A DNA stretch of 53,795 nucleotides, from assembly GCA_016280855.1 (NCBI GenBank), contig JAEEHP010000033.1, positions 1 to 53,795 on the forward strand, written 5' to 3'. The notes under the pieces were generated by a model. That model was not told the DNA's origin. It ran no database searches and saw only the letters and a program-made list of their open reading frames with translations. Positions 5,632 to 43,895 of this stretch are shown piece by piece (position 1 is the stretch's first letter; every line of letters begins with the position of its first letter). A program made the translations under genes and the position numbers. Source of the stretch: Bacteroidaceae bacterium. GTDB taxonomy: Bacteria > Bacteroidota > Bacteroidia > Bacteroidales > Bacteroidaceae.

Positions 5632-5675
5632 AACTTTCAACTTTCAACTCTCAACTTTCAACTTTCAACTTTCAA
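5632..5675. repeat. Heptad array (AACTTTC/AACTCTC units)
   Basis: About six tandem 7-bp units fill the gap between glsA and glsB. The array begins immediately after the glsA stop codon (complement of CTA at 5676-5678). Confidence 0.85.
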
Positions 5676-6485
5676 CTACAGTTTATACACCTCGTCCTGC
5701 ACCCATTGTGCCCATTCGGCGGGTCGCCGGCTGTTGTCGAAGGTCTGGTAGGGGATGGGTTGGCCGAAGCGCACTGTATAGTGGCGCCCGCGTGAACGGT
5801 ACATCTCGTCGGGCAGGAAAAGCATGGCGAAGTTGAACTTGATGCCGAGGCGTTTGCACCATTTGGCGACGCGGTAGAAGCGCGGCGAATTTTCGCCGAT
5901 GAAATGTACGGGAACGACGTCGCGCCGACTCTCGACGCTGCGCTGCACGAAGGCTTTGCCCCACGGGAGGTCGTGTATCTGTCCGTCGATGAGGCGCGAA
6001 CAGATGCCGGCGGGGAACATGATGATGTGGTTGTCGCTGTGGAAGGCCTCGTCGATCTGTTGGGGCAGGTCGCGCGACTGTGCACCGAATTTATTGATGC
6101 CGATGCACAAGGGCGCGAGGCCTTTGAGGTTCATGAGCAGTTCGCGGACGAGGTATTTGACATGTCCGTCATAGGCTTTGCCGATGATGGCGCCGAGGGT
6201 TACGCCGTCGATGGCGCCCAGGGGATGGTTGCTCACGAAGGTGGCGGGCCGCCCGTCGGCGGGCAGGTTCTCCAGTCCTTCCACGGAGATTGTGACGCCA
6301 ACTTTCTCGATGACGCCTTCGCAGAAGTCAACGCCGGTGCGACCTTCAATAAGATAGCTGTTGATGAAATCCAGATGGATGAAACGTTCGAGCCATCGGA
6401 TGACGAAACGGGGGATGAAGCGCGCCTTGGAACCCGCAGCAGAGCGCACAATCTTGTCGAGGTCTATGGTAGCTGACGGATCCAT
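5676..6485 (-). CDS. glsA: Lyso-glycine-lipid O-acyltransferase GlsA (PlsC-type)
   Basis: A 269-residue PlsC-family acyltransferase. It shows the NHPLGAID motif (residues 86-93; spacing H-x5-D rather than the more usual H-x4-D) and FPAG at 157-160 in place of FPEG. In Bacteroides, GlsA adds a second acyl chain to the hydroxyl of the N-acyl glycine made by GlsB, producing the membrane glycine lipids needed for stress tolerance and gut colonisation. It is followed by glsB and preceded, with a 1-bp gap, by a small secreted-protein gene, so all three probably share the promoter at 6911-6942. Confidence 0.85.
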   Translation of the reverse strand: MDPSATIDLDKIVRSAAGSKARFIPRFVIRWLERFIHLDFINSYLIEGRTGVDFCEGVIEKVGVTISVEGLENLPADGRPATFVSNHPLGAIDGVTLGAIIGKAYDGHVKYLVRELLMNLKGLAPLCIGINKFGAQSRDLPQQIDEAFHSDNHIIMFPAGICSRLIDGQIHDLPWGKAFVQRSVESRRDVVPVHFIGENSPRFYRVAKWCKRLGIKFNFAMLFLPDEMYRSRGRHYTVRFGQPIPYQTFDNSRRPAEWAQWVQDEVYKL

Positions 6486-6486
6486 G

Positions 6487-6891
6487 TCAGTTGATTGTAA
6501 ACTTCTTGTTGTTAATGATGTAGGATCCTCGCGGCAGCCCGCTGAGCCAATTGGTTCCCTTGCTGAGGCGGAACGAGGAGTAGAGCGCGCCGGAAGAGGT
6601 GTAGATGGGCAGGAGCTGATTGTAGCGGCTGGTCACGCAAAGGTTGCGTCCCTGCTGACGGATCTCGACGGGTTGAGGTGACGTCATCATGCGATGGCGG
6701 AAGTCGGGAAACTCACCTTGGGCATGGGACTGAACAGTCGCTGCGGGGCTGCGATGCAGGCTGTCGCGGCGCTGGACATCCTGCACGGGAACGGCACTGA
6801 CCGCCAAGGTTCCTGCGCAGAGGAAGGCAGCCCATACAATACGTAACCGCGTACTGTGCTTGTCGTCGTGGAATAGTCTGAGCATAGTCAA
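6487..6891 (-). CDS. Small secreted protein ending in a sorting-domain-like module
   Basis: A 134-residue protein of no recognised family. Residues about 15-34 are hydrophobic (RIVWAAFLCAGTLAVSAV) and look like a signal peptide. A polar, low-complexity linker follows. The last ~65 residues (VEIRQQGRNLCV..., GALYSS, LPRGSYIINNKKFTIN) resemble the C-terminal beta-strand module seen on type IX-secreted Bacteroidetes proteins, here almost without a passenger domain. Its stop is 1 bp before the glsA start, so the two are probably cotranscribed, but a link to glycine-lipid synthesis is only suggested by position. The start could also be at 6885 (MLRLF). Confidence 0.6.
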   Translation of the reverse strand: MTMLRLFHDDKHSTRLRIVWAAFLCAGTLAVSAVPVQDVQRRDSLHRSPAATVQSHAQGEFPDFRHRMMTSPQPVEIRQQGRNLCVTSRYNQLLPIYTSSGALYSSFRLSKGTNWLSGLPRGSYIINNKKFTIN

Positions 6892-6910
6892 ATTTTTGCC
6901 TATTTGGGTA

Positions 6911-6942
6911 CAAAGGTAGTAATTCTCTTTGGCAGAGCCAAA
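6911..6942 (-). promoter_or_regulatory. Promoter with overlapping palindrome, upstream of the glsA-glsB group
   Basis: On the minus strand TTTG (6942-6939), exactly 20 bp, then TACCTTTG (6918-6911): a perfect Bacteroidetes -33/-7 promoter. The palindrome TTTGGC-AGA-GCCAAA (6928-6942) covers the -33 element and could be an operator. Confidence 0.7.
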
Positions 6943-7101
6943 TTTTTTGGCGAAAAATGATGCGTGAAGACGTTATTTCGTGTATCGGGCTCGTGAAAGC
7001 CTCTTTTAAGACTGCTTAAACGTTAAAGTAAAACTTTAACTCATAAGATGGCTCTATTTCAGCATTTTATTACTTTTTTGAAAAATATTTTTGAATATCT
7101 C

Positions 7102-7132
7102 TTGCGTGGTTCAAAGATTCTATGTACTTTTG
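7102..7132 (+). promoter_or_regulatory. Promoter of the dcw cluster
   Basis: TTG (7102-7104), 20 bp, TACTTTTG (7125-7132): a full match to the Bacteroidetes consensus. The rsmH start codon follows only 4 bp after the -7 box, so the transcript is probably leaderless or nearly so. Confidence 0.7.
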
Positions 7133-7136
7133 TGGC

Positions 7137-8075
7137 ATGAATCCCTGCGAATACCACGTTCCTGTGCTTTTGGAACCATCTGTAGATGGTTTAAACATTT
7201 GTCCAAGTGGCACTTATGTGGATGTTACCCTCGGCGGAGGTGGACACAGTCGCGAGATTCTGCGTCGCATAGGTCCCGAGGGCCGTCTGTTCAGCTTCGA
7301 CCAGGATGGTGATGCCATCGCCCGTGCTCAGGGCTACTTGGCTGATCATCCTTCGCCGCAATGGACGTTGGTGCAGTCCAATTTCCGCTACTTGAAGAAC
7401 TGGATGCGCTACTACGGTGTGGAGAGCCTCGATGGCGTGCTGGCCGACTTAGGCGTGTCGAGCCATCATTTCGACGAAGCCGACCGCGGCTTCAGCTTCC
7501 GAACGGATGCGCCTCTGGACATGAGGATGAACCAGCAGGCGCGGCAGACGGCCGCAGACGTAGTGAACAGCTATAGCGCCGGCGAACTGACTTCGGTGTT
7601 CCGCCTCTACGGCGAACTGAGGCAGGCCTCGCGACTGGCTGATGCCATCGTTAAAGCCCGCAGTCGACAGGAGCTGCGCTCGACAGGCGAGCTGGCCGAA
7701 CTGCTGACCCCGTTGCTGGGGCGCGACCGCGAGAAAAAGGACTTGGCACGAGCCTTTCAGGCTTTGCGCATCGAGGTGAACCACGAGATGGACGCCCTGC
7801 GCGATATGCTGATGGCAGCAACGGAGTTGCTGCGACCTGGAGGGCGCCTCGTGGTCATTGCCTATCACTCGCTCGAGGACCGCATGGTCAAGAACCTCAT
7901 GCGAGCCGGTAACATCGAAGGCGAAGTCGTGCAGGACATTTACGGTAGGACGGAATCGACGCTCAGGGCCGTAGGAAAACCCATAGCACCGACCGATGAG
8001 GAGCTGGCGGCTAACCCGAGAAGCCGGAGCGCAAGGTTGAGGATTGCGGAGCGAACGGAAACGACGGAAGGGTAG
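7137..8075 (+). CDS. rsmH: 16S rRNA (cytosine(1402)-N(4))-methyltransferase RsmH
   Basis: A 312-residue SAM-dependent methyltransferase (formerly MraW) that N4-methylates C1402 in the 30S P site. The SAM motif DVTLGGGGHSREIL is near the N-terminus, followed by GVLADLGVSSHHFD, PLDMRMN, the FQALRIEVNHE block and a terminal VVIAYHSLEDR motif. The ATG at 7122 in the same frame lies inside the -7 promoter box, so I choose 7137 (MNPCEYHVPVLL), which matches the family N-terminus. It opens the dcw cluster. The usual preceding gene mraZ is not present; upstream lies a divergent gene. Confidence 0.93.
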   Translation: MNPCEYHVPVLLEPSVDGLNICPSGTYVDVTLGGGGHSREILRRIGPEGRLFSFDQDGDAIARAQGYLADHPSPQWTLVQSNFRYLKNWMRYYGVESLDGVLADLGVSSHHFDEADRGFSFRTDAPLDMRMNQQARQTAADVVNSYSAGELTSVFRLYGELRQASRLADAIVKARSRQELRSTGELAELLTPLLGRDREKKDLARAFQALRIEVNHEMDALRDMLMAATELLRPGGRLVVIAYHSLEDRMVKNLMRAGNIEGEVVQDIYGRTESTLRAVGKPIAPTDEELAANPRSRSARLRIAERTETTEG

Positions 8076-8170
8076 AAGTGCTACTTTTTTTAGAATTAAA
8101 GGATACGAGGTGATAGAAATCGGAGTAGAAAAGCCTCGTTGAGTATATATATATAATAGGTAATAGTGAA

Positions 8171-8740
8171 ATGAGCAAGAAACGTAGTGCATTAGAAGGT
8201 GCTGACCCCTTGGGTGGGCAGGAAGCCGTCACCACTGATGATGTCCCTTTCGAGATCGAGGACATCGTGGTCGAAGAGCCCTCGGAAGTGCTCCCTGAGG
8301 AATCAGAGGATGCCGACGCCGAGGAATCCGTGGACGATGATATCCCTGTGGCTGTCGTGAAGGATAACGACCGTCGGGAACGCCGTTCGACCTGGCGTAT
8401 GCTCTCGTCGGAGGATTTTCCGCAGCTGTCGTTGCGCGAGATCCTCGGTGGCGATTACCTCATCGGCAGCTTCCTCCGCCGCAACATCCTCTTCATCCTG
8501 GTGCTGGTGGGCTTAGCTATTCTCTATATCTCCAACCGCTATGCGGCGCAACAGGAAATCATCGAGCACGAGGAACTGCGTAAAGAGCTGACGGAAAAAA
8601 AGAACTATGCGCTCACACAGTATGCGGAGCTGACGATGAACAGCCGCCAAAGCAGCATAGAGAACCGCCTGAAGGGTTTCGGCGATAGCCTGCTGACCGC
8701 GCCGAAGGAGCCCCCGTTCATCATCAGGGTGAAGGAGTAG
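8171..8740 (+). CDS. ftsL: FtsL-like cell-division protein
   Basis: A 189-residue bitopic membrane protein in the ftsL position between rsmH and ftsI. Residues 1-90 are cytoplasmic and very acidic (many Glu/Asp). A single membrane span lies at about 104-122 (NILFILVLVGLAILYIS). A periplasmic coiled coil with Glu/Lys heptads follows (EIIEHEELRKELTEKK). FtsL joins FtsQ and other partners to form the subcomplex that activates FtsW-FtsI at the septum. The extended acidic N-terminus is usual for Bacteroidetes FtsL-like proteins. The call rests on topology and context rather than strong sequence identity. Confidence 0.8.
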   Translation: MSKKRSALEGADPLGGQEAVTTDDVPFEIEDIVVEEPSEVLPEESEDADAEESVDDDIPVAVVKDNDRRERRSTWRMLSSEDFPQLSLREILGGDYLIGSFLRRNILFILVLVGLAILYISNRYAAQQEIIEHEELRKELTEKKNYALTQYAELTMNSRQSSIENRLKGFGDSLLTAPKEPPFIIRVKE

Positions 8741-8743
8741 GGG

Positions 8744-8860
8744 GAGTTGAAAGTTGAGAGTTGAAAGTTCTTCGCAAGCGAAGCGACCAAAGGTCGAGCG
8801 GAGAGTTGAAAGTTGAAAGTTGAAAGTTGAAAATTGAGAGTTGAAAGTTGAAAAGTTGAG
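8744..8860. repeat. Heptad array (GTTGAAA/GTTGAGA units) with hairpin insert
   Basis: The array begins 3 bp after the ftsL stop. An insert at about 8770-8802 holds two palindromes, CTTCGCAAGCGAAG (8770-8783) and CGACC-AAA-GGTCG (8784-8796). The same composite occurs in opposite orientation after murE (12445-12536). Confidence 0.85.
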
Positions 8861-8886
8861 CATTCAAATATAGAAAATAAGGAGTC

Positions 8887-10974: not shown

Positions 10975-10981
10975 TATATAT

Positions 10982-12439
10982 ATGAAACTATCAGATCTCA
11001 TTCAAGTCATTAAGCCTACGGAGGTGATAGGCTCAACGGATGTCGAAATAGCAGACATCGCCACTGACTCGCGCCAGGTGAAGCCCGGCCATCTCTTCAT
11101 CGCCGTACCCGGAACGCAGGTGGACGGTCATCAGTATATCCCCAAGGCCATCGAGCAGGGCGCTGTGGCTGTGGCGTGCCAGTCGCTACCCGAGGTACGT
11201 CCTGAGGGTGTGACCTTCATCGTCGTTGCCGACAGCGAAGGCGCCGTAGGACTTTTGGCGCACCGCTTTTGCGGCGAACCTACAGAAAAGCTCGATTTGA
11301 TCGGTGTAACCGGAACTAACGGAAAGACGACCATCGCCACCTTATTATATAAGATGTTTCGCCGTTTCGGTTACAAATGCGGCCTCGTGAGCACGGTTTG
11401 CAACTACGTCGATGATGAGGCCGTGCCGACGGATCATACGACGCCCGACCCAATCACGCTGAACCGCCTGCTCGGCCGGATGGCGGATGCCGGGTGTAAA
11501 TACGCTTTCATGGAGGTGAGCTCCCACAGCGTCGTACAGCGTCGTATCGGCGGTCTGCGCTTCAAGGGAGGCATTTTCACCAACCTCACGCGCGACCATT
11601 TGGATTATCATAAGACGTTCGAGGCTTACCGCGATGCCAAGAAGGGTTTCTTTGACCTCCTGCCTAAGGACGCTTTTGCGGTGGTCAATGCCGACGACAA
11701 GAATGGTCTGTTCATGGTCCAGAACACGAAGGCTACGGTGAAGACCTACAGCCTCCGTGGCGTGGCAGATTTCCATGCCCGCATCCTTGAAGAAGGTTTT
11801 GACGGCATGAACCTGAATATCTGCGGTCGTGAGATTTTCGCCCAATTCATCGGGCGTTTCAATGTGTCGAACCTCCTGGCGGTGTATGGCGCTGCCGTCT
11901 GTATGGGCAAGCAGCCCGAGGACGTCCTTGTTGCCCTGAGCGCCCTTCGTCCTGTCAATGGCCGCTTCGAGACCATCCGTTCGCACGAAGGAGTGACGGC
12001 CATCGTGGACTACGCCCACACGCCCGATGCACTTGACAATGTGCTTTCGACGATCAACGAGATCCTGAAGAAGCCCGGCCAATGCATCACCGTCTGTGGA
12101 GCCGGCGGCAATCGCGACAAGGGCAAACGTCCGCTGATGGCGCAGAGTGCTGTGCGCGCTTCCGACCGCGTCATCATCACGTCGGACAACCCCCGTTTTG
12201 AGGAGCCGCAAGCCATTATCGACGATATGCTCGCAGGGGTTACCTCAGCGGAGGACAAGCGCAAGGTCATCAGCATCGTGGATCGTCGCGAGGCCATCCG
12301 CACGGCATGCATGATGGCACAGCCCGGCGACGTGATCCTCATTGCCGGCAAAGGACACGAAGACTATCAGGAAGTGAAAGGCGTCAAGCATCATTTCGAT
12401 GACCACGAAGTCGTCCGCGAAGCCTTTGGCCTTGAATAA
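10982..12439 (+). CDS. murE: UDP-MurNAc-L-alanyl-D-glutamate--meso-diaminopimelate ligase MurE
   Basis: A 485-residue cytoplasmic Mur ligase adding the third stem-peptide residue. The ATP loop [14 protein letters not shown] is clear, with the central-domain block [16 protein letters not shown] and the [11 protein letters not shown] region. The DNPR motif ([10 protein letters not shown]) marks enzymes that add meso-diaminopimelate rather than lysine, so the peptidoglycan is probably of the DAP type. It starts 7 bp after ftsI. murF, which often follows, is not in the cluster. Confidence 0.95.
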
Positions 12440-12444
12440 TAAAA

Positions 12445-12536
12445 ACTTTCAACTCTCCGCTCGACCTCAGGTCGCTTGACCCTTCAAGAACTTTCAACTT
12501 TCAACTCTCAACTTTCAACTTTCAACTCTCAACTCG
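12445..12536. repeat. Heptad array (AACTTTC/AACTCTC units) with hairpin insert
   Basis: The array begins 6 bp after the murE stop. The insert around 12457-12489 contains CGACCT-C-AGGTCG (12462-12474) and is, in reverse complement, a close relative of the insert at 8770-8802. It ends 8 bp before mraY. Confidence 0.85.
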
Positions 12537-12543
12537 TCACCTC

Positions 12544-13806
12544 ATGTTATACTACCTCTTCAGATACCTCGGTGAGTTTGGAATTCCCGGCTCCCACATG
12601 TGGAGTTATATCTCCTTCCGCGCTTTGCTGACGCTGGTGCTTTCGCTGATGATCTCAGCGTGGTTCGGCGAGTGGTTCATCAAATGGATGAAACGCCGCA
12701 ACTATAGCGAGGAGCAGCGTGATGCCAGCATTGATCCTTATGGCGTCGAGAAAAAGGGCGTCCCCTCGATGGGTGGCATTATCATCATTGTGGCCACTGT
12801 TGTCCCAGCCTTGCTCTTCGGTCGTCTGCGTAATATCTATATGTTATTGATGCTTGGAACGACTTTGTGGCTCGGAATGCTCGGTTTCATCGACGATATG
12901 ACCAAGATGAAGAAGAACAAGGACGGCATCAAACCTGCCGTGAAATTGATTGGTCAGGCCGTACTGGGTTTGGTCGTGGGCCTCGTGCTTTGGCTCAGTC
13001 CAGATGCCGTCATCCGCGAGAACATCTCAATCGAGCGTCAGGATGGCACTGAGATTGTACACAAAAGTCAGCCAGTCAAGAGCACGCTGACGACGATTCC
13101 CTTCGTCAAGAACAATAACCTCAGTTACACGGAGGCTTGTTCGTGGTTCGGCGATTACAAGTCCGCTGCAGGCTGGGGCTTGTTCGTGTTGGTGACCATC
13201 TTCATCGTCATGGCTGTTTCGAACGGAGCCAACCTGAACGATGGCATGGACGGGATGTGTGCCGGCAACTCTGCCATCATGTGTTTTGCCTTGGCCATCC
13301 TGGCTTATGTGTCGTCGCACACGCAATTTGCGGCTTACCTCAATATCATGTATGTCCCAGGTTCAGAGGAGCTGGTGGTTTTCCTGATGGCTTTCGTTGG
13401 TGCGCTCATCGGTTTCCTGTGGTACAACGCTTATCCGGCTCAGGTGTTCATGGGCGACACGGGTTCGTTGGCCATCGGCGGTATTATCGCAGTGACGGCC
13501 ATCATCATCCACAAGGAATTGCTGTTGCCGCTGATTTGCTTTGTGTTCCTCATGGAGAGCCTCAGTGTGATCCTGCAGACCAACTATGCACGCTACGGTA
13601 ACAAGCGCGGCCTGAAACTTCGTTTCTTCAAACGTGCTCCTCTGCATGACACGTTCCGTGTGAAGCCCGGCCAGTTGCCGTCGGACTTCCGTGTGCTCAT
13701 CAACTGGCCTAAGGGCAGCTGGTTGGAGTCGAAGATCACGACACGTTTCTGGATTATTACGATTATGATGTGCGCTCTTGCCATCGTTACATTAAAGATC
13801 AGATAA
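12544..13806 (+). CDS. mraY: Phospho-MurNAc-pentapeptide transferase MraY
   Basis: A 420-residue polytopic membrane enzyme that transfers phospho-MurNAc-pentapeptide to undecaprenyl phosphate, making lipid I. It has about ten spans and the Asp motifs FIDDMTKMKK, NLNDGMDGM and VFMGDTGSLAIGG. The cytoplasmic motif that is HHH in enterobacteria reads APLHDTF here and is followed by an insertion before the last span. To my knowledge a variant HD-type motif and an insertion are normal in Bacteroidales. A further insertion (about residues 160-210) between spans also lengthens it beyond the ~360 residues of E. coli MraY. murD starts 1 bp after its stop. Confidence 0.93.
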   Translation: MLYYLFRYLGEFGIPGSHMWSYISFRALLTLVLSLMISAWFGEWFIKWMKRRNYSEEQRDASIDPYGVEKKGVPSMGGIIIIVATVVPALLFGRLRNIYMLLMLGTTLWLGMLGFIDDMTKMKKNKDGIKPAVKLIGQAVLGLVVGLVLWLSPDAVIRENISIERQDGTEIVHKSQPVKSTLTTIPFVKNNNLSYTEACSWFGDYKSAAGWGLFVLVTIFIVMAVSNGANLNDGMDGMCAGNSAIMCFALAILAYVSSHTQFAAYLNIMYVPGSEELVVFLMAFVGALIGFLWYNAYPAQVFMGDTGSLAIGGIIAVTAIIIHKELLLPLICFVFLMESLSVILQTNYARYGNKRGLKLRFFKRAPLHDTFRVKPGQLPSDFRVLINWPKGSWLESKITTRFWIITIMMCALAIVTLKIR

Positions 13807-23223: not shown

Positions 23224-23303
23224 CTGCGATGTCGGATTCTCGGCGAAACGCCGAGCACCTAACCAGCGATTACTAATCTTTGATAACTGATTTCCTGGCT
23301 CTC

Positions 23304-23425
23304 ATCTCTCAACTCTCAACTTTAGCTTCGCTGACTTTCGTCACGACTCGGCAATTCAAGCAAGCTTGATTGCTCTCGCTGCTCCGAAAGTTCAACTCTC
23401 AACTCTCAACTCTCAACTTTCAACT
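23304..23425. repeat. Heptad array (AACTCTC/AACTTTC units) with palindromic insert
   Basis: Two heptad blocks flank an insert (about 23325-23390) containing the palindrome-like TTCAAGC-AA-GCTTGAT. The array runs up to the HIT-family start codon. Confidence 0.8.
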
Positions 23426-23428
23426 CCC

Positions 23429-27821: not shown

Positions 27822-27856
27822 TATTTTTCACTTTTCACTTTTCATTTTTCACTTTC
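27822..27856. repeat. Heptad array (TTTTCAC units)
   Basis: About five 7-bp units between the flippase and peptidase genes. The flippase stop codon (complement of TCA at 27849-27851) lies inside the array. A 20-bp stretch here is identical to one at 40093-40112. Confidence 0.85.
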
Positions 27857-29291
27857 TAAAGTATTTCCCCACGACGGGCAGGGATTTAAGCGGCAAGTCC
27901 TTCTTCTCGATGTACGCCAAGAAGATGATGATGAGAACCGTATTGAGGAGGACCTGAGCCCACGTAGGCAGGGAAGCTGTCAGCTGCATCAAGCCGAAGA
28001 GCACGGCCGTGAGCACGACGTATATCGCGATGTCCTTCATCGGATAGTCAATAGGATTCTTGATCTGGCCTACGATGTAGCTCAACACCATCGCCGTACC
28101 ATAGCCGGCGACGCCGCCCCAGGCGCAAGCCCAGTAGCCGTACTTAGGAATAAACAGGATATTCACAGCCACCAGTACGGCACAGCCGATGAACGAGAAC
28201 ACGGCGCCGTAGATGGTCTTGTCGATGAGTTTGTACCAGAACGACAGGTTGAAATAGACGCCCATCATGATTTCTGCTACCATGACGATAGGCACTACGC
28301 CCAGACCTTCGCGATAGTCCGAGCCGATGATGTATTGCAGCACAGGCATATAACCTACGACGGCGAGGAAGGCCAGTAGCGTGAACACGAGGAAGAATTT
28401 CATCGCCTCGGCGTAGTACTCGCGGCTGTCGGCATCCTTGGCCTTGGCAAACACGATAGGCTCGTAGGCGTAGCGGAAGGCTTGCGTAATCATCGCCATG
28501 ATCATCGCTATCTTCACGCAACCGCCGTAAACGCCCAGCTCCACGTTGGCTTGCTCTGCATCGGGATAGACCTTCGGGAACAGAATCTTGTCGGCTACCT
28601 GATTCAGAATGCCGGCTACGCCCAGGATGAGCATCGGCCAAGAGTACGAGAGCATCCGGCGTAGCAGTGAGCCGTCGAAATGCCAACGGATTTTGAACAG
28701 GTTAGGAATGAACAGCAGCGTGATGAAACCCGTGCATACGAGATTGATGAAGAACACGTAGAACACCGACGTCTTGTGCAGCACTACGAAATACAACAGG
28801 TTCAACCCGATGTTCAGGAAGATGAACAGCAGCTTTAATGTGGCGAAGCGGAGGGGACGTTTCTGGAAACGCAGGTACGAGAAGGGTAGTGCCTGCAGGG
28901 CGTCCATCGCCACCACGGCACCCATCATCAGCAGGTATTCGTGATGATTGCCATAGCCCAAATAGTCGGCAATGGGCGTGATGAAACCGAAGAGCAGCGC
29001 TACGAAGAGTGCCGTCAGCGAACCTACCAAGGCAAATGCCGTAGAGAATACCGTATCGGGGCGTTCGCGTTCGTCATTGGCGAAGCGGAACAGCGTCGTC
29101 TCCATGCCGAAAGTCAGGATTACCAGGATCAATGCCGTGTAGGCATAGAGGTTCGTGCTCACACCGTAATCCCCCGACTCTTTTGGCATATAATGGGTGT
29201 AGAGCGGTACCAACAGGTAATTAAGAAAGCGTCCTACGATGCTACTTAGGCCGTAGATGGCAGTGTCCTTCGCCAGAGATTGTAAGCGCAT
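27849..29291 (-). CDS. Polysaccharide flippase, Wzx-like (MOP superfamily)
   Basis: A 480-residue inner-membrane protein with 12-14 predicted spans. It belongs to the oligosaccharide flippase group that moves undecaprenyl-linked repeat units across the membrane. The N-terminal stretch DTAIYGLSSIVGRFLNYLLV followed by PLYTHYM is characteristic of this group in Bacteroidetes, where single copies occur outside polysaccharide clusters. No glycosyltransferase genes are adjacent, so its substrate is unknown. Its stop codon lies inside a heptad array. Confidence 0.88.
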   Translation of the reverse strand: MRLQSLAKDTAIYGLSSIVGRFLNYLLVPLYTHYMPKESGDYGVSTNLYAYTALILVILTFGMETTLFRFANDERERPDTVFSTAFALVGSLTALFVALLFGFITPIADYLGYGNHHEYLLMMGAVVAMDALQALPFSYLRFQKRPLRFATLKLLFIFLNIGLNLLYFVVLHKTSVFYVFFINLVCTGFITLLFIPNLFKIRWHFDGSLLRRMLSYSWPMLILGVAGILNQVADKILFPKVYPDAEQANVELGVYGGCVKIAMIMAMITQAFRYAYEPIVFAKAKDADSREYYAEAMKFFLVFTLLAFLAVVGYMPVLQYIIGSDYREGLGVVPIVMVAEIMMGVYFNLSFWYKLIDKTIYGAVFSFIGCAVLVAVNILFIPKYGYWACAWGGVAGYGTAMVLSYIVGQIKNPIDYPMKDIAIYVVLTAVLFGLMQLTASLPTWAQVLLNTVLIIIFLAYIEKKDLPLKSLPVVGKYFRK

Positions 29292-34969: not shown

Positions 34970-35026
34970 ATTCTTCATTCTTCATTCATCACTCTTCATT
35001 CTTCATTCCTCATTCCTCATTCTTCA
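34970..35026. repeat. Heptad array (ATTCTTC/ATTCCTC/ATTCATC units)
   Basis: About eight 7-bp units. The last codons and stop of ybeY (35010-35012) are inside the array, so the terminal KNEE of YbeY is written by the repeat. Confidence 0.85.
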
Positions 35027-37508: not shown

Positions 37509-38144
37509 ATGAAAACGCTTGAGAAAATATTTGCAGGCAAACTGCTGAAAGTGAAAGCCATCAAATTGCAACCCACCAACCCCTTCACGTGGGCTAGCGG
37601 ATGGAAGTCGCCATTCTATTGCGACAATCGCAAGACGTTGTCCTATCCCGAACTGCGCACCTTTGTCAAGACAGAGACGGCGCGCATCATCATGGAACGC
37701 TTCCCCGAAGTCGAAGCCATTGCCGGCGTGGCAACGGGTGCCATACCTCAAGGCGCACTCGTGGCTGATGTCCTCGCACTGCCCTTCGTGTACGTCCGCT
37801 CGAAACCCAAAGACCACGGTCTCGAGAACCTCATCGAAGGCGAGCTGCGACCGGGCATGAAAGTGGTTGTCGTCGAAGACCTCATCTCCACGGGAGGCAG
37901 CAGCCTTAAAGCCGTGGAGGCCATTCGCAACAACGCCTGTGACGTCATAGGCATGGTCGCGGCTTACACCTACGGCTTTGACGTCGCGCGCAAAGCCTTC
38001 CAGGATGCCGGCGTAGAGCTCATCACACTCACCAACTACGAAGCCGTCGTAGCCGAAGCGCTTGCCACAGGGTATATTAGGGAAACGGACGTCGAAACGC
38101 TCAATCAATGGCGACGCGACCCCGCACATTGGGGAACGGTGTAG
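37509..38144 (+). CDS. pyrE: Orotate phosphoribosyltransferase
   Basis: A 211-residue enzyme of de novo pyrimidine synthesis converting orotate and PRPP to OMP. The PRPP-binding loop VVVVEDLISTGGSS is clear, with the N-terminal FTWASGWKSPFYCDNR block that contacts orotate and GVATGAIPQGALVAD. The next enzyme, PyrF, is not adjacent. Its stop codon TAG runs directly into a heptad array. Confidence 0.95.
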   Translation: MKTLEKIFAGKLLKVKAIKLQPTNPFTWASGWKSPFYCDNRKTLSYPELRTFVKTETARIIMERFPEVEAIAGVATGAIPQGALVADVLALPFVYVRSKPKDHGLENLIEGELRPGMKVVVVEDLISTGGSSLKAVEAIRNNACDVIGMVAAYTYGFDVARKAFQDAGVELITLTNYEAVVAEALATGYIRETDVETLNQWRRDPAHWGTV

Positions 38145-38192
38145 AGATGAGAGATTAAAGATTAGAGATGAGAGATTAAAGATAAAAGATTT
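38144..38192. repeat. Heptad array (AGATTAA/AGATGAG units)
   Basis: About six 7-bp units start at the last base of the pyrE stop codon and end about 10 bp before the SRPBCC gene. Confidence 0.8.
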
Positions 38193-38200
38193 TATAAAGG

Positions 38201-38683
38201 ATGACAAAATTTGAAAGTACAGTAAAACAAATACACTCACCGCAAGCAGCGGTTTACAAGAAACTCTCCGACCTCAACAACCTGGTCACCATCCAGCAGC
38301 GCGCTTCCGATCCCGCTTTCGTCGAGCAGCTGCGTGCTTCAGGACAGGTGCCGGAGGACAAGATCTCCCAGATTCAGGAGGCGCTGCAACGCCTCGTGAT
38401 CACCACCGATGCCATCACCTATCCGGGCTCACCCGTAGGTGACGTCACGCTGCGCATCGTCGAGCGCGACGAGCCCAAGTGCGTCAAGTTCGAGGTGCAG
38501 GGTGCGCCCATCCAGGGCAACCTGTGGATTCAGGTCCTTCCCACTTCCACCTACGAGAGCAAGCTCAGATGCACAATCGGTGCTGAGCTCAATTTCCTGA
38601 TGAAACAGGTGGCTAAGAAACCGTTGCAGGAGGGCGTGGAGAAGCTGGCCGACATGCTCGCAATGATTCCCTATGGCTACTAA
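38201..38683 (+). CDS. SRPBCC (START-like) family protein
   Basis: A 160-residue soluble protein of a conserved Bacteroidetes family with a START/Bet v1-like fold, as suggested by the strand-rich centre (GDVTLRIVERDEPKCVKFE) and the long C-terminal helix (PLQEGVEKLADMLAMIP). Its ligand and role are unknown. Its last 11 bp overlap the argH start, so translation of the two is probably coupled. The neighbours pyrE and argH do not point to a particular substrate. Confidence 0.75.
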   Translation: MTKFESTVKQIHSPQAAVYKKLSDLNNLVTIQQRASDPAFVEQLRASGQVPEDKISQIQEALQRLVITTDAITYPGSPVGDVTLRIVERDEPKCVKFEVQGAPIQGNLWIQVLPTSTYESKLRCTIGAELNFLMKQVAKKPLQEGVEKLADMLAMIPYGY

Positions 38684-40013
38684 ACTCTGGCAAAAGAACA
38701 CCACCCCCACCGCTGAGATCGAACGATTCACCATCGGACGCGACCGCGAACTCGACCTGCTACTGGCCGAGAGCGATGTCGTAGGTTCCATGGCGCATAT
38801 CACCATGCTCGAGAGCATAGGCCTGCTCACGGCCGATGAGCTCACGACGCTCCTCGCCGCCCTGCGCGACATCCTCAGCGAGATACGCGACGGGCAGTTC
38901 ACCATCGAGGAAGGCGTCGAGGACGTTCATTCCGAGGTCGAACTGCTCCTTACGCGGCGCCTCGGCGACATTGGCAAGAAGATACACAGCGGACGCTCGC
39001 GCAACGATCAGGTGCTGCTCGACCTTAAGTTGTGGACACGCCAGCAACTGCGCGACATCGTGCAGCTCGTGAAGAATCTCTTTGACGAGCTTCAGAGGCA
39101 GAGCGAGCGCCACAAGGATGTGCTCATGCCGGGCTACACCCACCTGCAGGTCGCCATGCCTTCGAGCTTCGGACTCTGGTTCGGTGCCTATGCCGAGAGC
39201 CTCGCCGACGATATGCTCTTCCTGCAGGCGGCCTATCGCTTGGTCAACCGCAACCCCTTAGGCTCCGCGGCAGGCTACGGCTCATCGTTCCCCCTCAACC
39301 GTCAGATGACCACCGACTTACTGGGCTTCGACACCATGGACTATAACGTCGTCTATGCCCAGATGGGGCGCGGCAAGATGGAGCGCAATGTGGCTTTCGC
39401 CCTTGCCTCTGTGGCCGGCACCATAGCCAAGCTCGCCTTCGACGCCTGTCTGTTCAACTCCCAGAACTTCGCCTTCGTCAAGCTGCCTGCTGAATGCACC
39501 ACGGGTTCGAGCATCATGCCCCACAAGAAGAACCCCGACGTCTTCGAGCTCACCCGTGCCAAGTGCAACAAACTCCAGGCGCTGCCCCAGCAGGTGACGC
39601 TCATCATGAACAACCTGCCCAGCGGATACTTCCGCGACCTGCAGGTGCTCAAGGAGGTCTTCCTGCCAGCCTTCGAGGAACTCAAGGACTGCCTCACCAT
39701 GACCGCCTACATCATTCCACGTATCGAGGTCAACGAGCACATCCTCGATGACCCGCGCTACGACTTGATGTTCTCTGTCGAGGAAGTCAACCGCCTCGCA
39801 GCCAATGGCGTACCCTTCCGCGATGCCTACCGCAACGTCGGACTCGACATAGAAGCCGGTAAGTTCCAACCCGACAAACACGTCCATCACACCCACGAAG
39901 GATCCATTGGCAACCTCTGCAACGATCGCATTGCTGCCTTTATGCAACAGATCCTCGACGGTTTCGCCTTCGGGAAAGTGGACATAGCCCTGCAACGGTT
40001 GGTCAATGGATAA
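38673..40013 (+). CDS. argH: Argininosuccinate lyase
   Basis: A 446-residue enzyme of the fumarase/aspartase superfamily performing the last step of arginine synthesis, splitting argininosuccinate to arginine and fumarate. Conserved regions are HSGRSRNDQVLLD, the PGYTHLQVAMPSSFG block and the signature GSSIMPHKKNPD. It overlaps the SRPBCC gene by 11 bp; no other arg gene is near. Its final codons AAT GGA TAA form part of a heptad array (AATGGAT AATGGAC). Confidence 0.95.
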   Translation: MATKLWQKNTTPTAEIERFTIGRDRELDLLLAESDVVGSMAHITMLESIGLLTADELTTLLAALRDILSEIRDGQFTIEEGVEDVHSEVELLLTRRLGDIGKKIHSGRSRNDQVLLDLKLWTRQQLRDIVQLVKNLFDELQRQSERHKDVLMPGYTHLQVAMPSSFGLWFGAYAESLADDMLFLQAAYRLVNRNPLGSAAGYGSSFPLNRQMTTDLLGFDTMDYNVVYAQMGRGKMERNVAFALASVAGTIAKLAFDACLFNSQNFAFVKLPAECTTGSSIMPHKKNPDVFELTRAKCNKLQALPQQVTLIMNNLPSGYFRDLQVLKEVFLPAFEELKDCLTMTAYIIPRIEVNEHILDDPRYDLMFSVEEVNRLAANGVPFRDAYRNVGLDIEAGKFQPDKHVHHTHEGSIGNLCNDRIAAFMQQILDGFAFGKVDIALQRLVNG

Positions 40014-40037
40014 TGGACAATGAATAATGGACAAGGA
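40007..40037. repeat. Heptad array (AATGGAC/AATGGAT/AATGAAT units)
   Basis: About four 7-bp units beginning within the last two codons of argH and supplying its stop codon. An ATG at 40027 inside it is not used as the start of the next gene in this annotation. Confidence 0.75.
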
Positions 40038-40080
40038 AAAAGGTACAGATCGGTTCAAAGAGATGCTTATTACGTCAAGA

Positions 40081-40638
40081 ATGAAAGGTAAATCTTATTT
40101 TTCACTTTTCACTCTTTCACTTTTCACTTTCCTTCTCCTTTCCTGCTCCGACGCCGACAATACTTACTATCGTGGTGCCCGCGTGCGCTTCAGCTACAGC
40201 GCCACCAACACCGTGCCCGAGCTTAATGCCGCTTTGGGCAGCATGGGTGAGTTCTGTTCCATCCGCTGTGATGCCGTCAAATACATCTTCACTTCCCCGC
40301 GTTCGTCCACCTCTCGGCCGCTGACGGCTGTTGACACGCGCGTGAATCCAGCCCTCGGACTTAGCGGTCTCATAGTGGGTCTGCCCAATATTCCCGAGTT
40401 GGGCGCTGATGTGCCGCGTGTCGTGGCCTTCGATCTTGCCTGCCCCTGTTACGAGGACTTCAACACGACCCGCAACCTCCAGTTCGCCGGCAACGGACGT
40501 GCCGCATGCACACGCTGCGGACGCACCTACGATCTCAACAACCTCGGCATCGTTGTCGAGGGACCGGCAGGCCGCAGCCTCTATCGCTACCGGGCCACCT
40601 ACAACCAGTTCGGCAACACACTGTCCGTCAACAACTAA
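40081..40638 (+). CDS. Small Cys-rich lipoprotein of unknown function
   Basis: A 185-residue protein with a lipoprotein signal: a hydrophobic stretch of Phe/Leu/Ser/Thr followed by LLLSC, lipid Cys22. The mature part contains a CPC and a CTRC pair about 30 residues apart (LACPCYEDF ... AACTRCGRTYDLN). This resembles the metal-binding pairs of Rieske or zinc-ribbon folds, but the usual His residues are not seen, so function is open. I do not know a named family. The start at 40081 is preferred to 40027 because it begins the signal. Most of the signal-peptide codons come from a TTTTCAC heptad array. upp follows 21 bp later. Confidence 0.65.
   Translation: MKGKSYFSLFTLSLFTFLLLSCSDADNTYYRGARVRFSYSATNTVPELNAALGSMGEFCSIRCDAVKYIFTSPRSSTSRPLTAVDTRVNPALGLSGLIVGLPNIPELGADVPRVVAFDLACPCYEDFNTTRNLQFAGNGRAACTRCGRTYDLNNLGIVVEGPAGRSLYRYRATYNQFGNTLSVNN
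40093..40131. repeat. Heptad array (TTTTCAC units) inside a signal-peptide coding sequence
   Basis: The first 20 bp (40093-40112) are identical to 27819-27838 in an intergenic array. Here the repeat is translated as the Phe-Ser-Leu-Thr-rich hydrophobic core of the lipoprotein signal. Confidence 0.8.
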
Positions 40639-40659
40639 CACCTATAACCCCATACCGCT

Positions 40660-41316
40660 ATGAATGTCATCGATTTCAGCCAAAGCAACACCATCATCAA
40701 CCAGTACATGAGCGAGCTGCGCGATAAGAGTTTTCAGCGCAACCGCCATCTCTTCCGCACCAACATACAGCGTGTAGGCGAGATGATGGCCTTTGAACTC
40801 TCCAAGACGCTTACTTACAAACCCAAGACCGTGACCACGCCCCTCGGCACCCTCGACATCGCGCTGCCCAAGGACGACCTGCTCATCGCCACCGTCCTGC
40901 GTGCCGGCCTGCCTTTCCACGAAGGTTTCCTTCATGTCTTCGACCGCGCTGCCAGCGCCTTTGTCTCGGCCTATCGCATGTACACCAATCGCGAACACAC
41001 CGAGGTGGGAATCCACACCGAGTATATGGCTTCGCCCTCCTGCAAGGGCAAGACGCTCATCATCGTTGACCCCATGCTTGCCACCGGAGGATCCATGGCT
41101 GCTGCCTACGAGGCACTTGTCTCAACAGGGAAACCCGCTCAGGTGCATATCGCATGCGTCATCGCTACACCCGAGGGCATCGAAACCATCAAGGCCGTTC
41201 TGCCTGAGAACGCCACCATCTGGTGCGCCGCCATCGACCCCGGCATGAATGCCAACAAGTACATCGTTCCCGGATTCGGCGACTGTGGCGATCTATGCTA
41301 CGGCGAGAAACTCTGA
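40660..41316 (+). CDS. upp: Uracil phosphoribosyltransferase
   Basis: A 218-residue pyrimidine-salvage enzyme making UMP from uracil and PRPP. The PRPP loop LIIVDPMLATGGSM and the C-terminal uracil-binding segment GFGDCGDLCYG are clear. The N-terminus (DKSFQRNRHLFRTNIQRVGE) corresponds to the usual LMR-type start of Upp but is slightly divergent. With pyrE 3 kb upstream, the region has both de novo and salvage routes to UMP, although they need not be coregulated. Confidence 0.93.
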   Translation: MNVIDFSQSNTIINQYMSELRDKSFQRNRHLFRTNIQRVGEMMAFELSKTLTYKPKTVTTPLGTLDIALPKDDLLIATVLRAGLPFHEGFLHVFDRAASAFVSAYRMYTNREHTEVGIHTEYMASPSCKGKTLIIVDPMLATGGSMAAAYEALVSTGKPAQVHIACVIATPEGIETIKAVLPENATIWCAAIDPGMNANKYIVPGFGDCGDLCYGEKL

Positions 41317-41356
41317 CGCCGATTTTGAAACCGGTTCATAGTAAAGATATAGAATA

Positions 41357-43699
41357 ATGAAAAGACACCTTTTATTATTATGTCTGGCGCTGCTGGCATC
41401 TGCCGGTCTCTTTGCCAGCGAGTCGATCACGCTCTCCACGGGCGCTACGTTGGAAATCTTCCAGGCCGATGCCGCCAAGGCCAATGGCTGTGCCATCATC
41501 GCCTGTCCCGGCGGCGGTTATGCCTACCGTGCCGACGATAAGGAGGGCAGCAACTGGGCACCCTTCATGAACGAACGCGGCTACACCCTGGCCGTGCTCA
41601 AATACCGCTTGCCGGGCGGCAACCACGCTTGGCCCCTGGCTGACGGACGTGCCGCGATGAAATACCTGCGCGACAACGCTGCCACCCTGAACCTCGACCC
41701 CACACACGTCGGCGTGATGGGCTTCTCGGCCGGTGGTCATCTGGTCAGCACCATCGCTACGCACACCGAAGGCACTGAGCGCCCCGCCTTCCAGATCCTC
41801 TTCTATCCCGTCATCACGATGGAAGCCGGCAAGACGCACCAGGGTTCCATCGACGAGCTGCTGGGCTCCAACCCTTCCGACGCGTTGGTGCAGGAGTACA
41901 GCAATCAGCTCCACGTCGATGCCAACGCCCCCATGGCTTACATCACCTATTCCGACAACGATGGCACCGTGCCTCCCCTCACCAATGGCAAGGCTTACTA
42001 CGATGCCCTCGTGGCGAAGTCCGTTCCCGTCACGCTGAAGACTTATGCCACCGGCGGTCACGGATGGTCGCCTGGTGACAAGCTGGGTGAGACCCTCAAG
42101 GCCGAGATGCAGAACCATTTCTCCAGCTGGCTTGAGGAATTGGTGACCCGACTGGGTACGCCAACGATTCCTGAAGGCACGGTCATCACGAATGCCAGCA
42201 TCAACTTCTCCAATGCCATCGTCGAAGGCGTCGTCGAGGGCGAGACAAACGCGATGACAGTCGGCGCTGGTGAGATTTCCGACGGGTGGCTTAAGCTTTA
42301 CGACGGCTCGAGCACGGTCACCATACCTGTTGACCAGCGTGCCGGAACACGTGATGTCGTCACGGTGAGTTTCAAGATGGCTTGGGGCAACAAGAACAAT
42401 ATGGGTTCCGGTTTCCGTATCAAGGATTCAGGCGGCGCCGACATCGGCAGCTTCCGCTTTGCCCGTTGGGATGGAGCTGGTAATAACAGCAACACATTCG
42501 GCATAGATAACATATCTGCTTATATGGGAAGCCATTATGGCAATGCGCCCATCAGGGACAGATATACCCAGTTCGTCATAACGGTGGATTATGCCACGGG
42601 TAAGATCACCACGAATGTGTCTTGTACCAACCCCAGTGCAGGCAAGGTGTTTGAGGTAGCCCTTACCAATCAGAATCCTGTGGCATCAATAGAGTTCTAC
42701 GGTTATGGCGTAGGCGGCAACCAGGATCGGGCTTCCGTCATCGACGACGTGAAGGTAACCACCACCATTGGCGATTATTCTGCTACGCTCTATAACTACA
42801 CCATTAATTATAAGGCCGGCAATGATATCGTGAAGACGGTAACCGGCACGACCACCGCCGGCGACGAGGTCGCTGTAGATACCTATCTGTGGAAGGATGA
42901 CGTGAAGTACAAGAAGGCCGACGGCGAACCCGAGTCCTTGACGGTTCAGGCAGGTGACAACACGTTTGATGTCGCTGTCGTTGAGGCTCCTATGTATAGC
43001 TATAACGTGAAGTCTTCCGAGGGCTTTGTCTTGGTCAACGGCTCCTATTACGAACAGGAATCCGTGACGGTCGCCTACAAGGCTTTCTATCTCGACGGCA
43101 CAGACCTGTATGCCGTGGATAAGACGGGCGGACAGTATTGTACGACCTTCACCTTGGACACCGACAACAAAGAGGTCGTTCTCAACGCCGCAAAGAAGGC
43201 TGAAAATGTGTGTTACTATGCCGAGGGCGAGGACATCCCCGGCGCTACGGCTACGAATGCCGGCAACAATATGGTCATCCGCTCCTCCAATGCCCAATGT
43301 GCTTACGCTGCCACCGACCTGTCGCTCATCACCTTGCCCGCCGGCACCTACACGGCAACCATGGTGCTGTATGCCAACAACTCAGCAGGCCTCACGCTGA
43401 AGTTCAGGTATGACACCGAGTATGAAGAAACGTTCACGGGTGCCAGCAACTGGATGGAGCGGACGCATGACTTCACGCTGACCGCACCGACCGAGATCCA
43501 ATGGCTCGCCTCCGGCGATGCGAAGAATGGTCTCGACCTCATCTACATCTCCGGCATAGCTGATGAGCCCGATGGCATCGAAGCAGTGGACAATGGACAA
43601 ATGAACAAAGCCGAGATCTTCAACCTCGCTGGACTGCGTGTTCACAAGGCAGGAAAGGGCGTCTATATCGTCCGCGGTAAGAAGGTTCTGATTAAGTGA
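41357..43699 (+). CDS. Secreted alpha/beta-hydrolase (carbohydrate esterase-like) with accessory domains
   Basis: A 780-residue exported protein. Signal peptide 1-20. The hydrolase domain (about 22-265) has the oxyanion segment CPGGGYAYRAD, nucleophile motif GFSAGG (Ser124), a candidate Asp at 200-202 (YSDNDGTVP) and catalytic His235 (GGHGWSPGD), as in acetylxylan/feruloyl-type esterases of gut Bacteroidetes. A concanavalin-like domain (about 275-465), a strand-rich spacer and a CBM-like jelly roll (about 620-745, YAEGEDIPGA to WLASGDAKNG) follow. The C-terminus EIFNLAGLRVHKAGKGVYIV to the end resembles a type IX-like sorting signal. It probably deacylates plant or host glycans; the substrate is inferred. 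Confidence 0.85.
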   Translation: MKRHLLLLCLALLASAGLFASESITLSTGATLEIFQADAAKANGCAIIACPGGGYAYRADDKEGSNWAPFMNERGYTLAVLKYRLPGGNHAWPLADGRAAMKYLRDNAATLNLDPTHVGVMGFSAGGHLVSTIATHTEGTERPAFQILFYPVITMEAGKTHQGSIDELLGSNPSDALVQEYSNQLHVDANAPMAYITYSDNDGTVPPLTNGKAYYDALVAKSVPVTLKTYATGGHGWSPGDKLGETLKAEMQNHFSSWLEELVTRLGTPTIPEGTVITNASINFSNAIVEGVVEGETNAMTVGAGEISDGWLKLYDGSSTVTIPVDQRAGTRDVVTVSFKMAWGNKNNMGSGFRIKDSGGADIGSFRFARWDGAGNNSNTFGIDNISAYMGSHYGNAPIRDRYTQFVITVDYATGKITTNVSCTNPSAGKVFEVALTNQNPVASIEFYGYGVGGNQDRASVIDDVKVTTTIGDYSATLYNYTINYKAGNDIVKTVTGTTTAGDEVAVDTYLWKDDVKYKKADGEPESLTVQAGDNTFDVAVVEAPMYSYNVKSSEGFVLVNGSYYEQESVTVAYKAFYLDGTDLYAVDKTGGQYCTTFTLDTDNKEVVLNAAKKAENVCYYAEGEDIPGATATNAGNNMVIRSSNAQCAYAATDLSLITLPAGTYTATMVLYANNSAGLTLKFRYDTEYEETFTGASNWMERTHDFTLTAPTEIQWLASGDAKNGLDLIYISGIADEPDGIEAVDNGQMNKAEIFNLAGLRVHKAGKGVYIVRGKKVLIK

Positions 43700-43810
43700 A
43701 TGCAATGAAAGTTAACTTTCTAATTGCTGAACGTGAAGAACGTATCTAAGGTATTGGTAAAATAATACATGATTAGGACTAAAACCTAAAAAAGCTTTTC
43801 CACTGGTCAT

Positions 43811-43895
43811 CAATTCACAATTCATAATTCACAATTCATAATTCACAATTCATCATTCATCAATCATCGTTCATCATTCATCAATCATCAATCAT
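43811..43895. repeat. Heptad array (AATTCAC/AATTCAT, then CATTCATCAAT-type units)
   Basis: The longest array, of about 12 units. It lies in the 393-bp gap between the esterase and the giant secreted protein, about 110 bp after the esterase stop. The remainder of this gap holds the promoter and leader at 44009-44092. Confidence 0.8.

Follow-up and report, generated by a model that had tools for sequence, protein, structure and literature searches.

Tandem arrays with a seven-nucleotide period, between and within genes, and a nested two-hairpin module in a rumen Bacteroidales genome

The tandem heptanucleotides of Calothrix PCC 7601 carry the name STRR. They are mentioned in a paper whose accessible portion describes intergenic heptameric repeats in two further bacteria, GGGAATC in Xanthomonas and GGGGA(C/T)T in Nostoc, which vary in length and sequence between related species (PMC4692102). 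The GGGAATC repeats lie nearer to the 5'-neighbouring open reading frame (ORF; on average 28 nt, in either orientation) than to the next one (160 nt), and the same portion cites a polymerase-footprint slippage hypothesis for heptamers (PMC4692102). Direct repeats of the heptamer TAACTGA are described from Beggiatoaceae, Cyanobacteria and some Bacteroidetes (MacGregor 2015, PMC4679880). According to the consulted sections of that study, they form intergenic arrays, overlap upstream stop codons and are present in ORFs; forward units yield stops in three frames while reverse units are found inside ORFs, indels between two close Cyanothece strains are mostly 7-nt steps, and in the Guaymas Beggiatoa the majority of sets are found directly before start codons, those in ORFs falling mostly in hypothetical proteins or near protein ends. 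Heptamer arrays, overlap with stops and presence in ORFs are, on the evidence of those sections (PMC4679880), already published for other bacteria. Here we analyze a 53,795-nt stretch of a Bacteroidaceae genome (contig JAEEHP010000033.1 of assembly GCA_016280855.1; the window), which carries ten tandem arrays with a 7-nt period and differing units. The original prediction, made from the letters of the window, held these arrays to be intergenic and placed at stop codons, and suggested a generating mechanism tied to gene ends or a role in termination. Comparison with the remainder of the genome and with relatives leads us to consider it probable that the arrays are local duplications of a preferred size (7, less often 8 nt) that have been retained by tolerance.

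The window corresponds to contig 39 in an assembly of 3.43 Mb and 287 contigs (84.9% complete), a metagenome-assembled genome (MAG) of a rumen Bacteroidales. This genome is labelled G000, and the other G and L labels denote related genomes and their loci. Its closest relatives by MurE are MAGs of rumen Bacteroidaceae and Prevotellaceae, and 80 MurE loci were used of at least 593. The DNA examined comprised 586 kb from the own genome together with portions of G018 and G016 and these 80 loci; same-genus counts are based on 38 genomes, and the best 30 loci per search were used. Genes were called with a purpose-written script rather than a standard gene caller. The own sample consists of 41 stretches. 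Because 20 of these were chosen for contigs with (TTTCAAC)x3 and one is the window, array density was taken from stretches C1-C20 only, where it amounts to 14 arrays per 156 kb.

Seven is the commonest intergenic period in the own genome, as was found by the period-7 scan that the original prediction had proposed, run with Tandem Repeats Finder (TRF) on the sampled genome and its relatives. Counting intergenic arrays with a score of at least 40, periods 7, 14, 21 and 28 make up 73 of 151 own arrays (19/43 and 54/108 in the two own samples), with raw counts of 47, 16, 9 and 1, and the runner-up is period 22 with 17. The corresponding fractions are 26/56 in G018, 12/50 in G016, 16/37 in the near loci and 59/202 in the far loci, raw period 7 alone contributing 19, 8, 6 and 34 arrays. 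Lag tests, performed with 10 shuffles for own and relatives' intergenic DNA and with 200 for orthologous gaps and ybeY, agree with this ranking in own intergenic DNA (250 gaps, 45.8 kb), where lag 7 is the highest of lags 3-24 with an excess of 5.1 percentage points over dinucleotide shuffles (z 23.7). Lag 7 is also highest by excess in G018, G016 and the near loci; by z-score lag 21 ranks above it in G018 and lag 12 in G016, and in the far loci lag 22 exceeds it by both measures. The lag-7 excess falls to just 0.0-1.0 points in gaps without a TRF array, and the signal therefore resides in discrete arrays. A preferred 21-bp step was considered and rejected: pooled lag 21 exceeds lag 14, but it won in only 9 of the 33 own intergenic arrays of at least 45 bp, with 20 opposite and 4 ties.

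Arrays recur at orthologous sites with different units. In a set of 89 gaps representing seven gene pairs from 20 related loci (L009-L028), lag 7 was significant in 18 gaps and lag 8 in 11, against 0-4 for the other lags from 4 to 12 and an expectation of 1.8. Behind ybeY, whose orthologues were found by tblastn, lag 7 was significant in 9 of 30 species (0.6 expected), two of which, L239 and L264, are unconvincing by eye. The arrays at or across the ybeY stop consist of GAATGAA in G000 and GGATTAA in G016, with ATTATGA-type repeats in G027 and G035. Likewise, the argH stop lies within AATGGAC in G000 and within GTTGAAA in G018; in G033 an AATTCAT array follows it at a distance of about 14 nt. 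The ORF after argH contains what we take to be a lipobox, the basis for reading it as a lipoprotein gene. An array encodes its apparent signal peptide in 3 of 30 loci (one of the 30 is truncated ahead of the N terminus), with the unit TTTTCAC in G000 (window 40081-40170), CTTTCAA in G018 (L387) and ACATTTT in G015 (L370); in the window, the array at 40099-40130 codes for the hydrophobic core of this apparent signal peptide, MKGKSYFSLFTLSLFTFLLLSC. At any one site the majority of species lack an array, which favours repeated gain or loss. Different units at orthologous sites favour local duplication kept where it is tolerated over a gene-end or termination mechanism.

Arrays are also present within genes, where 23 of the 102 own arrays with a 7-nt consensus are located, a count that takes in some GC-rich units and a single weak ORF (score 11). 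Raw TRF periods in own coding DNA are 7 in 12 arrays and 14 in 8, against 1, 2, 2 and 0 for periods 8, 10, 11 and 13. Two of these 12 period-7 arrays straddle a gene end, and 12 further arrays of period 21 were not counted, 21 being also a multiple of 3. Coding DNA of G018 has 13 arrays of period 7 and 2 of period 14 against 6, 1, 0 and 1 for periods 8, 10, 11 and 13, and TRF detected none of period 7 or 14 in coding DNA of G016. Examples among the genes listed are an AmpG-like transporter, Tex, Fmt, a GH97-like enzyme (G000 and G018) and an asparagine-synthetase-like protein (G018); the AmpG-like, GH97-like and asparagine-synthetase-like names come from reading, those of Fmt and Tex from homologues of solved structure (PDB 4iqf and PDB 2oce, respectively). 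The original prediction had argued from 7 not being divisible by 3 that coding selection played no part, an argument that fails for arrays in frame within genes. As 7 is prime to 3, translation of a stop-free array gives a repeat of seven residues whichever frame is used. In 13 of the 23 in-gene arrays only the coding strand is free of stops, in 3 both strands are, and in the other 7 the unit carries a coding-strand stop. In the AmpG-like and Tex peptides (MRDERLE repeats), the in-frame copies evade the unit's stop.

The insertions in Fmt can be placed on a known structure. Relative to PDB 4iqf, the query is longer at two places: 38 residues stand against 8 in the stretch that joins the aligned N- and C-terminal parts, and 63 against 40 at a gap inside the C-terminal part. 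These two insert places hold NHQSSFINHHSSIIIHQSSI in G000, DNGQGTMDNGG in G003, MVNGQWSMDNGQWSMVNDQWSM in G015 and IHNSQFTIHNE in G018. A lag-7 window with 25/35 matches occurs in 5 of 30 orthologues (3 of 30 at the stricter 27/35), and no such window was found in any of the 30 at any other lag from 4 to 13. No second Fmt copy was found in G000, where the other match, C63, covers residues 84-167 only, at 31%. The Tex array is present in G000 only, 1 of 22 among the orthologues listed, and sits at an alignment gap relative to PDB 2oce. As a separate observation, Fmt (L124:15918-17030) contains a second type of in-frame insert, with the peptide SSLPLKGEGG...LSPFEGERGGGL and seemingly palindromic in its DNA, which is common to G000 and G016 Fmt (L300) and has partial matches elsewhere in G003 and G018.

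The in-gene and orthologous arrays bear on the suspicion that the repeats are an assembly artefact of metagenome binning. The fragmented state of the own assembly, the MAG or uncultured status of the nearest named relatives and the tendency of repeats to break contigs would be in keeping with such an origin. On the other hand, separately assembled relatives carry arrays at orthologous sites with different sequences, and open frames run intact through the in-gene arrays. An artefact is accordingly the least credible of the explanations that we weighed, with hardly any probability left to it.

Placement relative to stop codons was evaluated against a random midpoint, in line with the stop-distance test of the original prediction, and the excess near stops is real but modest, approximately 1.4-1.5 fold. 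Of 54 arrays in own same-strand gaps, 25 are at most 6 nt away from the upstream stop where 16.2 are expected (p 0.003), and in the other genomes pooled the count is 49 of 104 where 35.1 are expected (p 0.003). By group, the counts (expectations) are 9/26 (7.0) in G018, 5/6 (1.6) in G016, 7/14 (5.5) in the near loci and 28/58 (20.9) in the far loci. The same gaps showed no excess on the start side (own 15/54, 16.3 expected; others 36/104, 34.8 expected). Gap types also differ. Array density is 0.47 per kb in own convergent gaps and 1.84 in own same-strand gaps (p 0.003, tested against all gap classes), and for the other genomes pooled it is 0.38 and 1.21 (p 0.03, likewise); the convergent deficit is shared by the own sample, G018 and the far loci. 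In divergent gaps, arrays are frequent in the own genome sample (1.44 per kb) and in G016 (1.67) and scarce in the other groups (0.06-0.5). A generation mechanism tied to gene ends does not agree with arrays inside genes and with convergent gaps, which have two 3' ends, being the poorer overall, and the same two observations speak against a role of the arrays in termination. Placement looks like retention where promoters, terminators and start sites would stay undisturbed, not like a process bound to 3' ends.

These data also address a selected role at gene ends, through stops in three frames, protection of mRNA 3' ends or transcription termination. Such a role would account for the array excess within 6 nt of stops and for the stop-bearing sense strand at own 3' ends, and a unit of 7 nt containing TGA or TAA does yield stops in three frames. 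However, the orientation bias is missing in other genomes taken alone: sense-strand stops at 3' versus 5' ends number 7/9 versus 7/13 in G018 (p 0.38) and 20/30 versus 24/33 in the remaining genomes (p 0.78), although pooling all genomes, the own included, gives 49/69 versus 37/71 (p 0.025). A three-frame stop function as a general rule was rejected, the bias being confined in this way to the own genome. Further points against a selected role are the in-frame arrays within genes, the overall poverty of convergent gaps (with exceptions), and ybeY, behind which 21 of 30 species are not significant at lag 7 and most relatives have no array. We therefore regard a selected role as improbable.

The units themselves suggest how the arrays grew. 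The original prediction held that they had grown locally, and this is borne out by graded units, neighbours one step apart and different units per site; purely local growth is nevertheless incomplete as an account, as unit classes recur across genomes. Adjoining units differ by single steps and unit types shade into each other within an array, for example from GAGAGAT through GAGAGTT to GAGGGTT in L114. Deviations are focused on one unit position (55% versus 37% by chance, 44 own arrays), and units are more purine/pyrimidine-polarised than the null (1.43 versus 1.09). A restriction of within-array changes to A/G was ruled out by 136 transitions versus 118 transversions. In 37 genomes, 242 arrays fall into 79 unit classes. 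Pairs of the same class across genomes number 955 versus 101 for letter-shuffled units, and this recurrence above the shuffle indicates that a preferred unit vocabulary exists.

For local duplication with retention, the likeliest molecular step would be slippage of the polymerase, or its copying the same stretch again, 7 nt (less often 8 nt) at a time. Duplication would start on many short sequences and would then copy units again with mutation. Its products would persist wherever extra sequence is tolerated, namely in same-strand gaps, at 3' ends, in protein loops or linkers and in signal peptides, and at 3' ends an array unit would often provide the stop codon. Given retention wherever tolerated, proximity to stops would be a footprint of tolerance and not of gene-end recognition. 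The peak at 7, the shoulder at 8 and the many units would be easier to reconcile with a physical step size than with an enzyme that recognises a particular sequence.

Within the window, TRF recovered period-7 arrays at all 10 loci that had been named. A stop codon inside the array or at most 6 nt from it was verified at seven of them (glsA, the ftsL-position gene, murE, the flippase, ybeY, pyrE and argH), and at the flippase, ybeY and argH it lies inside, as predicted. GlsA, GlsB, GreA, DprA, YbeY, PyrE, ArgH and RsmH are named by NCBIfam with at least one model above cut-off each, the HIT-family name comes from NCBIfam matches below cut-off, and the flippase, ftsL, ftsI, MurE and MraY names are a reading of gene order. 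The array limits given here are those of TRF, apart from the short part at 12444-12457, which was read from the sequence; the arrays at 5632, 8745 and 27825 were both found by TRF and read by eye. An AACTTTC array on the minus strand (purine strand GTTGAAA; 5632-5677) abuts and overlaps the stop of glsA (5676-6485, minus strand). GC-rich spacers split the arrays at 8770, 12458 and 23322 into halves. The first of these arrays, AGTTGAA on the plus strand, begins 4 nt past the stop of the ftsL-position gene (8171-8740) and occupies 8745-8769 and 8804-8859, the second half lying upstream of the ftsI-position ORF (8887). The second, AACTTTC on the minus strand, has a short first part at 12444-12457, 4 nt past the murE stop (12437-12439), and continues at 12489-12534, 9 nt ahead of the start of the mraY-position ORF (12544). 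In both cases the spacer (8770-8800, plus strand; 12458-12488, minus strand) is the same hairpin module. The third spacer (23322-23391, no strand assigned) differs from this module and separates a minus-strand CTCTCAA array (23299-23321), downstream of greA (stop 23223), from a minus-strand TCAACTC array (23392-23426), which ends 2 nt ahead of the HIT-family gene start (23429) and not at a stop codon. A near-copy of this spacer, with 2 differences in 70 nt, lies within L110:5036-5139, and the sequence stands beside or between arrays.

Among the remaining loci, a minus-strand TTTTCAC array (27825-27855) contains the flippase stop (gene 27849-29291, minus strand), and a minus-strand ATTCTTC array (34970-35026) straddles the gap and the ybeY 3' end (stop 35010-35012), lying partly in coding sequence (LKNEE*). 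On the plus strand, an AGATTAA/AGAGATG array (38142-38191) begins at the pyrE stop (38142-38144), and an AATGGAC/AATGGAT array (40000-40038) contains the argH stop (40011-40013). The plus-strand TTTTCAC array at 40099-40130, supported by TRF and translation, is the one that appears to encode a signal-peptide core (ORF read as 40081-40638). A mixed AATTCAC/AATCATC array on the minus strand (43807-43895), supported by TRF and its unit gradient, lies 107 nt past the stop of the gene at 41357-43699. The description of all ten arrays as intergenic consequently holds for most of them and not for 40099-40130. That units are specific to their locus is correct in part only: AACTTTC is present at four window loci, and (TTTCAAC)x3 has 65 exact matches in the own genome, some overlapping. 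A reversed-pattern control is void for this unit, since reversed TTTCAAC is a rotation of itself. Two other repeats were observed in the window. A 22-bp unit, AAAACCCTCAAGGGTTTAAGGC, occurs in four copies at 1273-1359 (TRF), and lag 22 is also strong in relatives' intergenic DNA. At 53487-53528 an inverted heptamer element consists of AGACTACAGACTACAG, a spacer of about 10-12 nt and CTGTAGTCTGTAGTCT; it recurs with a spacer of 18-20 nt at L105 ~735-753, L116 ~13699-13718, L120 ~8146-8164 and L121 ~4281-4298, and may be a terminator or a small mobile repeat. ARAGORN found no tRNA in the window, and Rfam 15 gave no match above gathering score there, the two modules included.

The module between the array halves at 8745-8859 and 12444-12534 is a stretch of about 31 nt with two hairpins. 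A hand-written structure for ten copies has 5 of 11 pairs changed on both sides and 94.5% of cells paired; it was taken from the same ten sequences on which its five measures were tested. Of 500 shuffles, none reached the observed paired percentage or covariation score and one reached the count of both-side changes, while the measure of further pair types was within the shuffle range (149/500 reached the observed value). Model R1, which includes the array flanks, matches the window at 8763-8807 (72.6 bits) and 12451-12495 (65.8 bits). With at most 150 candidates scored per genome, it gave 82 matches in G000, 70 in G018, 54 in G003, 41 in G016, 35 in G029, 30 in G010 and 29 in G002, and at least one match in 19 of 38 same-genus genomes. 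The core-only model R2, applied across a sample of the order, matched 2 of 149 genomes: G000, with 49 matches, and a genome from a different genus of the family, with one; it kept 4 base pairs, and for over 40 genomes, searched with stricter filters and 48 candidates scored each, absences are no proof. The range of the module looks nearly limited to the genus. One module pattern compared with viral contigs gave no match.

A composite mobile repeat has to be weighed as the source of the AACTTTC-type arrays. The module would insert 3' of AGTT and copy the adjacent 6-11 nt, and repeated insertion and loss would leave heptamers. In a wider reading, such a nearly genus-restricted element, entering with a copy of the neighbouring 7-8 nt, would seed arrays, which would then supply raw material for proteins, and stop-free arrays would repeatedly be turned into signal peptides and loops of housekeeping enzymes. 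We give the composite mobile repeat a minor share of the probability, and the wider reading a similarly minor one. The structural rule used to collect 135 distinct modules requires TT before the module, and about 6 rows that look like chance matches were left in; ahead of this TT, A is found at -4 in 103 modules and G at -3 in 102, and this preference makes AGTT the usual left neighbour. The two flanks of a module share longer words than permuted pairs do (mean 5.57 versus 3.97, 0/300 as high), including in 93 modules outside GAAAGTT-type contexts (4.96 versus 3.52). An 8-nt unit, GACAAGTT, in G010 suggests by eye that unit length tracks the module flank, and module and array counts correlate over 37 genomes. 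Against a composite mobile repeat, most unit classes were never seen with a module, and 9 of 37 genomes have modules without exact (TTTCAAC)x3 while 3 of 37 show the reverse. Some modules moreover have no flanking repeat, among them those at a tRNA 3'-end sequence in L161 and L157, and no transposase candidate was found. In L161 and L157, the module lies inside what looks like another, incomplete tRNA 3'-end copy (GGGTT / CAATTCCCTCC), which might mark the terminus of an integrated element. Modules within genes account for 7 of the 34 contexts listed (from 38 matches), one of them in the weak ORF noted above, and all are antisense in the purine orientation.

The modules might instead be repetitive extragenic palindromic (REP) elements moved by a REP-associated tyrosine transposase (RAYT) or IS200-type Y1 transposase, with the arrays as a by-product. 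They resemble REPs, in so far as the available part of PMC3733652 describes these, in being short GC-rich hairpins beside a usual tetranucleotide, dispersed between and in genes. REPs mobilised by a RAYT carry an unpaired GTAG or CGTC tag at one end; most modules here follow an AGTT flank, and CGTC appeared solely inside the second hairpin of certain copies. Yet the Y1 transposase family (PF01797) had no match in five of the seven module-rich genomes (G000, G002, G016, G018 and G029) and only weak, borderline matches in G003 and G010, to frames of 433-513 aa. This absence is no proof, because the five unmatched genomes are MAGs of 76-92% completeness. We nevertheless judge a REP origin very unlikely.

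Several results weigh against local duplication with retention as a full explanation. In other families of the order (18 stretches, 248.6 kb) period 10 (6/23) is about as common as period 7 (5/23). Same-class pairs across genomes still number 201 versus 45.5 for letter-shuffled units when AACTTTC and AACTCTC are set aside, and the counts of modules and (TTTCAAC)x3 have a Spearman correlation of 0.51 (p 0.0013; 37 genomes, G000-G036). From the recurrence of classes, together with a genome-wide AACTTTC family that correlates with the module, it follows that part of the arrays may spread by copying. The deficit in convergent gaps is not uniform, with convergent versus same-strand densities of 0.51 versus 0.36 per kb in G016 and 1.29 versus 1.27 in the near loci, and the small unselected subset C1-C20 has 2 of its 6 arrays in convergent gaps. 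In the own genome, sense-strand stops are present in 22 of 30 arrays at 3' ends versus 6 of 25 at 5' ends (p 0.0004), a bias that a selected role could equally produce. Finally, the slippage step is one that we infer, and the comparison uses one genome per species. If local duplication with retention is nonetheless correct, one mutational process with a 7-nt step would shape much of the intergenic sequence in a rumen bacterial group. The same process would supply in-frame protein segments, including the signal-peptide core of one lipoprotein in three species by three units. Besides the arrays, the nested module is itself dispersed as a repeat and has covarying stems; neither a name nor a transposase was found for it.

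Our literature search, which covered few subscription journals, returned no publication in which heptamer arrays recur at homologous loops or signal peptides of proteins, and none on the two-hairpin module. The TAACTGA unit is absent from the window units, from the own listing and from the 30 commonest of the 79 classes, no genome-wide pattern search having been made for it. In the sections of the TAACTGA study that we could consult (PMC4679880), one unit is studied, whereas here there are many, 79 classes in 242 arrays. TAACTGA lies near starts in Beggiatoa, while no start-side excess is seen here, and unlike TAACTGA as described in those sections, the present arrays enter interior positions of housekeeping enzymes, with several species affected at the same site (PMC4679880). 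With the Xanthomonas and Nostoc heptamers, as presented in the accessible portion of PMC4692102, the arrays share the period of 7, the intergenic position and the bias to the upstream gene. Those heptamers are, however, G-rich and capable of forming quadruplexes, whereas here the many units are mostly AT-rich and occur also in genes (PMC4692102). The likeness to Calothrix PCC 7601 is that of tandem heptanucleotide arrays, by description alone (PMC4692102). Rickettsia palindromic elements and intragenic REPs are described, in the available parts of two papers (PMC3733652, PMC10969869), as inserting in frame in unrelated protein genes. The arrays resemble the Rickettsia elements in their own in-frame insertion in unrelated protein genes; the Rickettsia elements are palindromic, whereas the arrays are direct tandem heptamers of many units, with hairpins only in the nested module.

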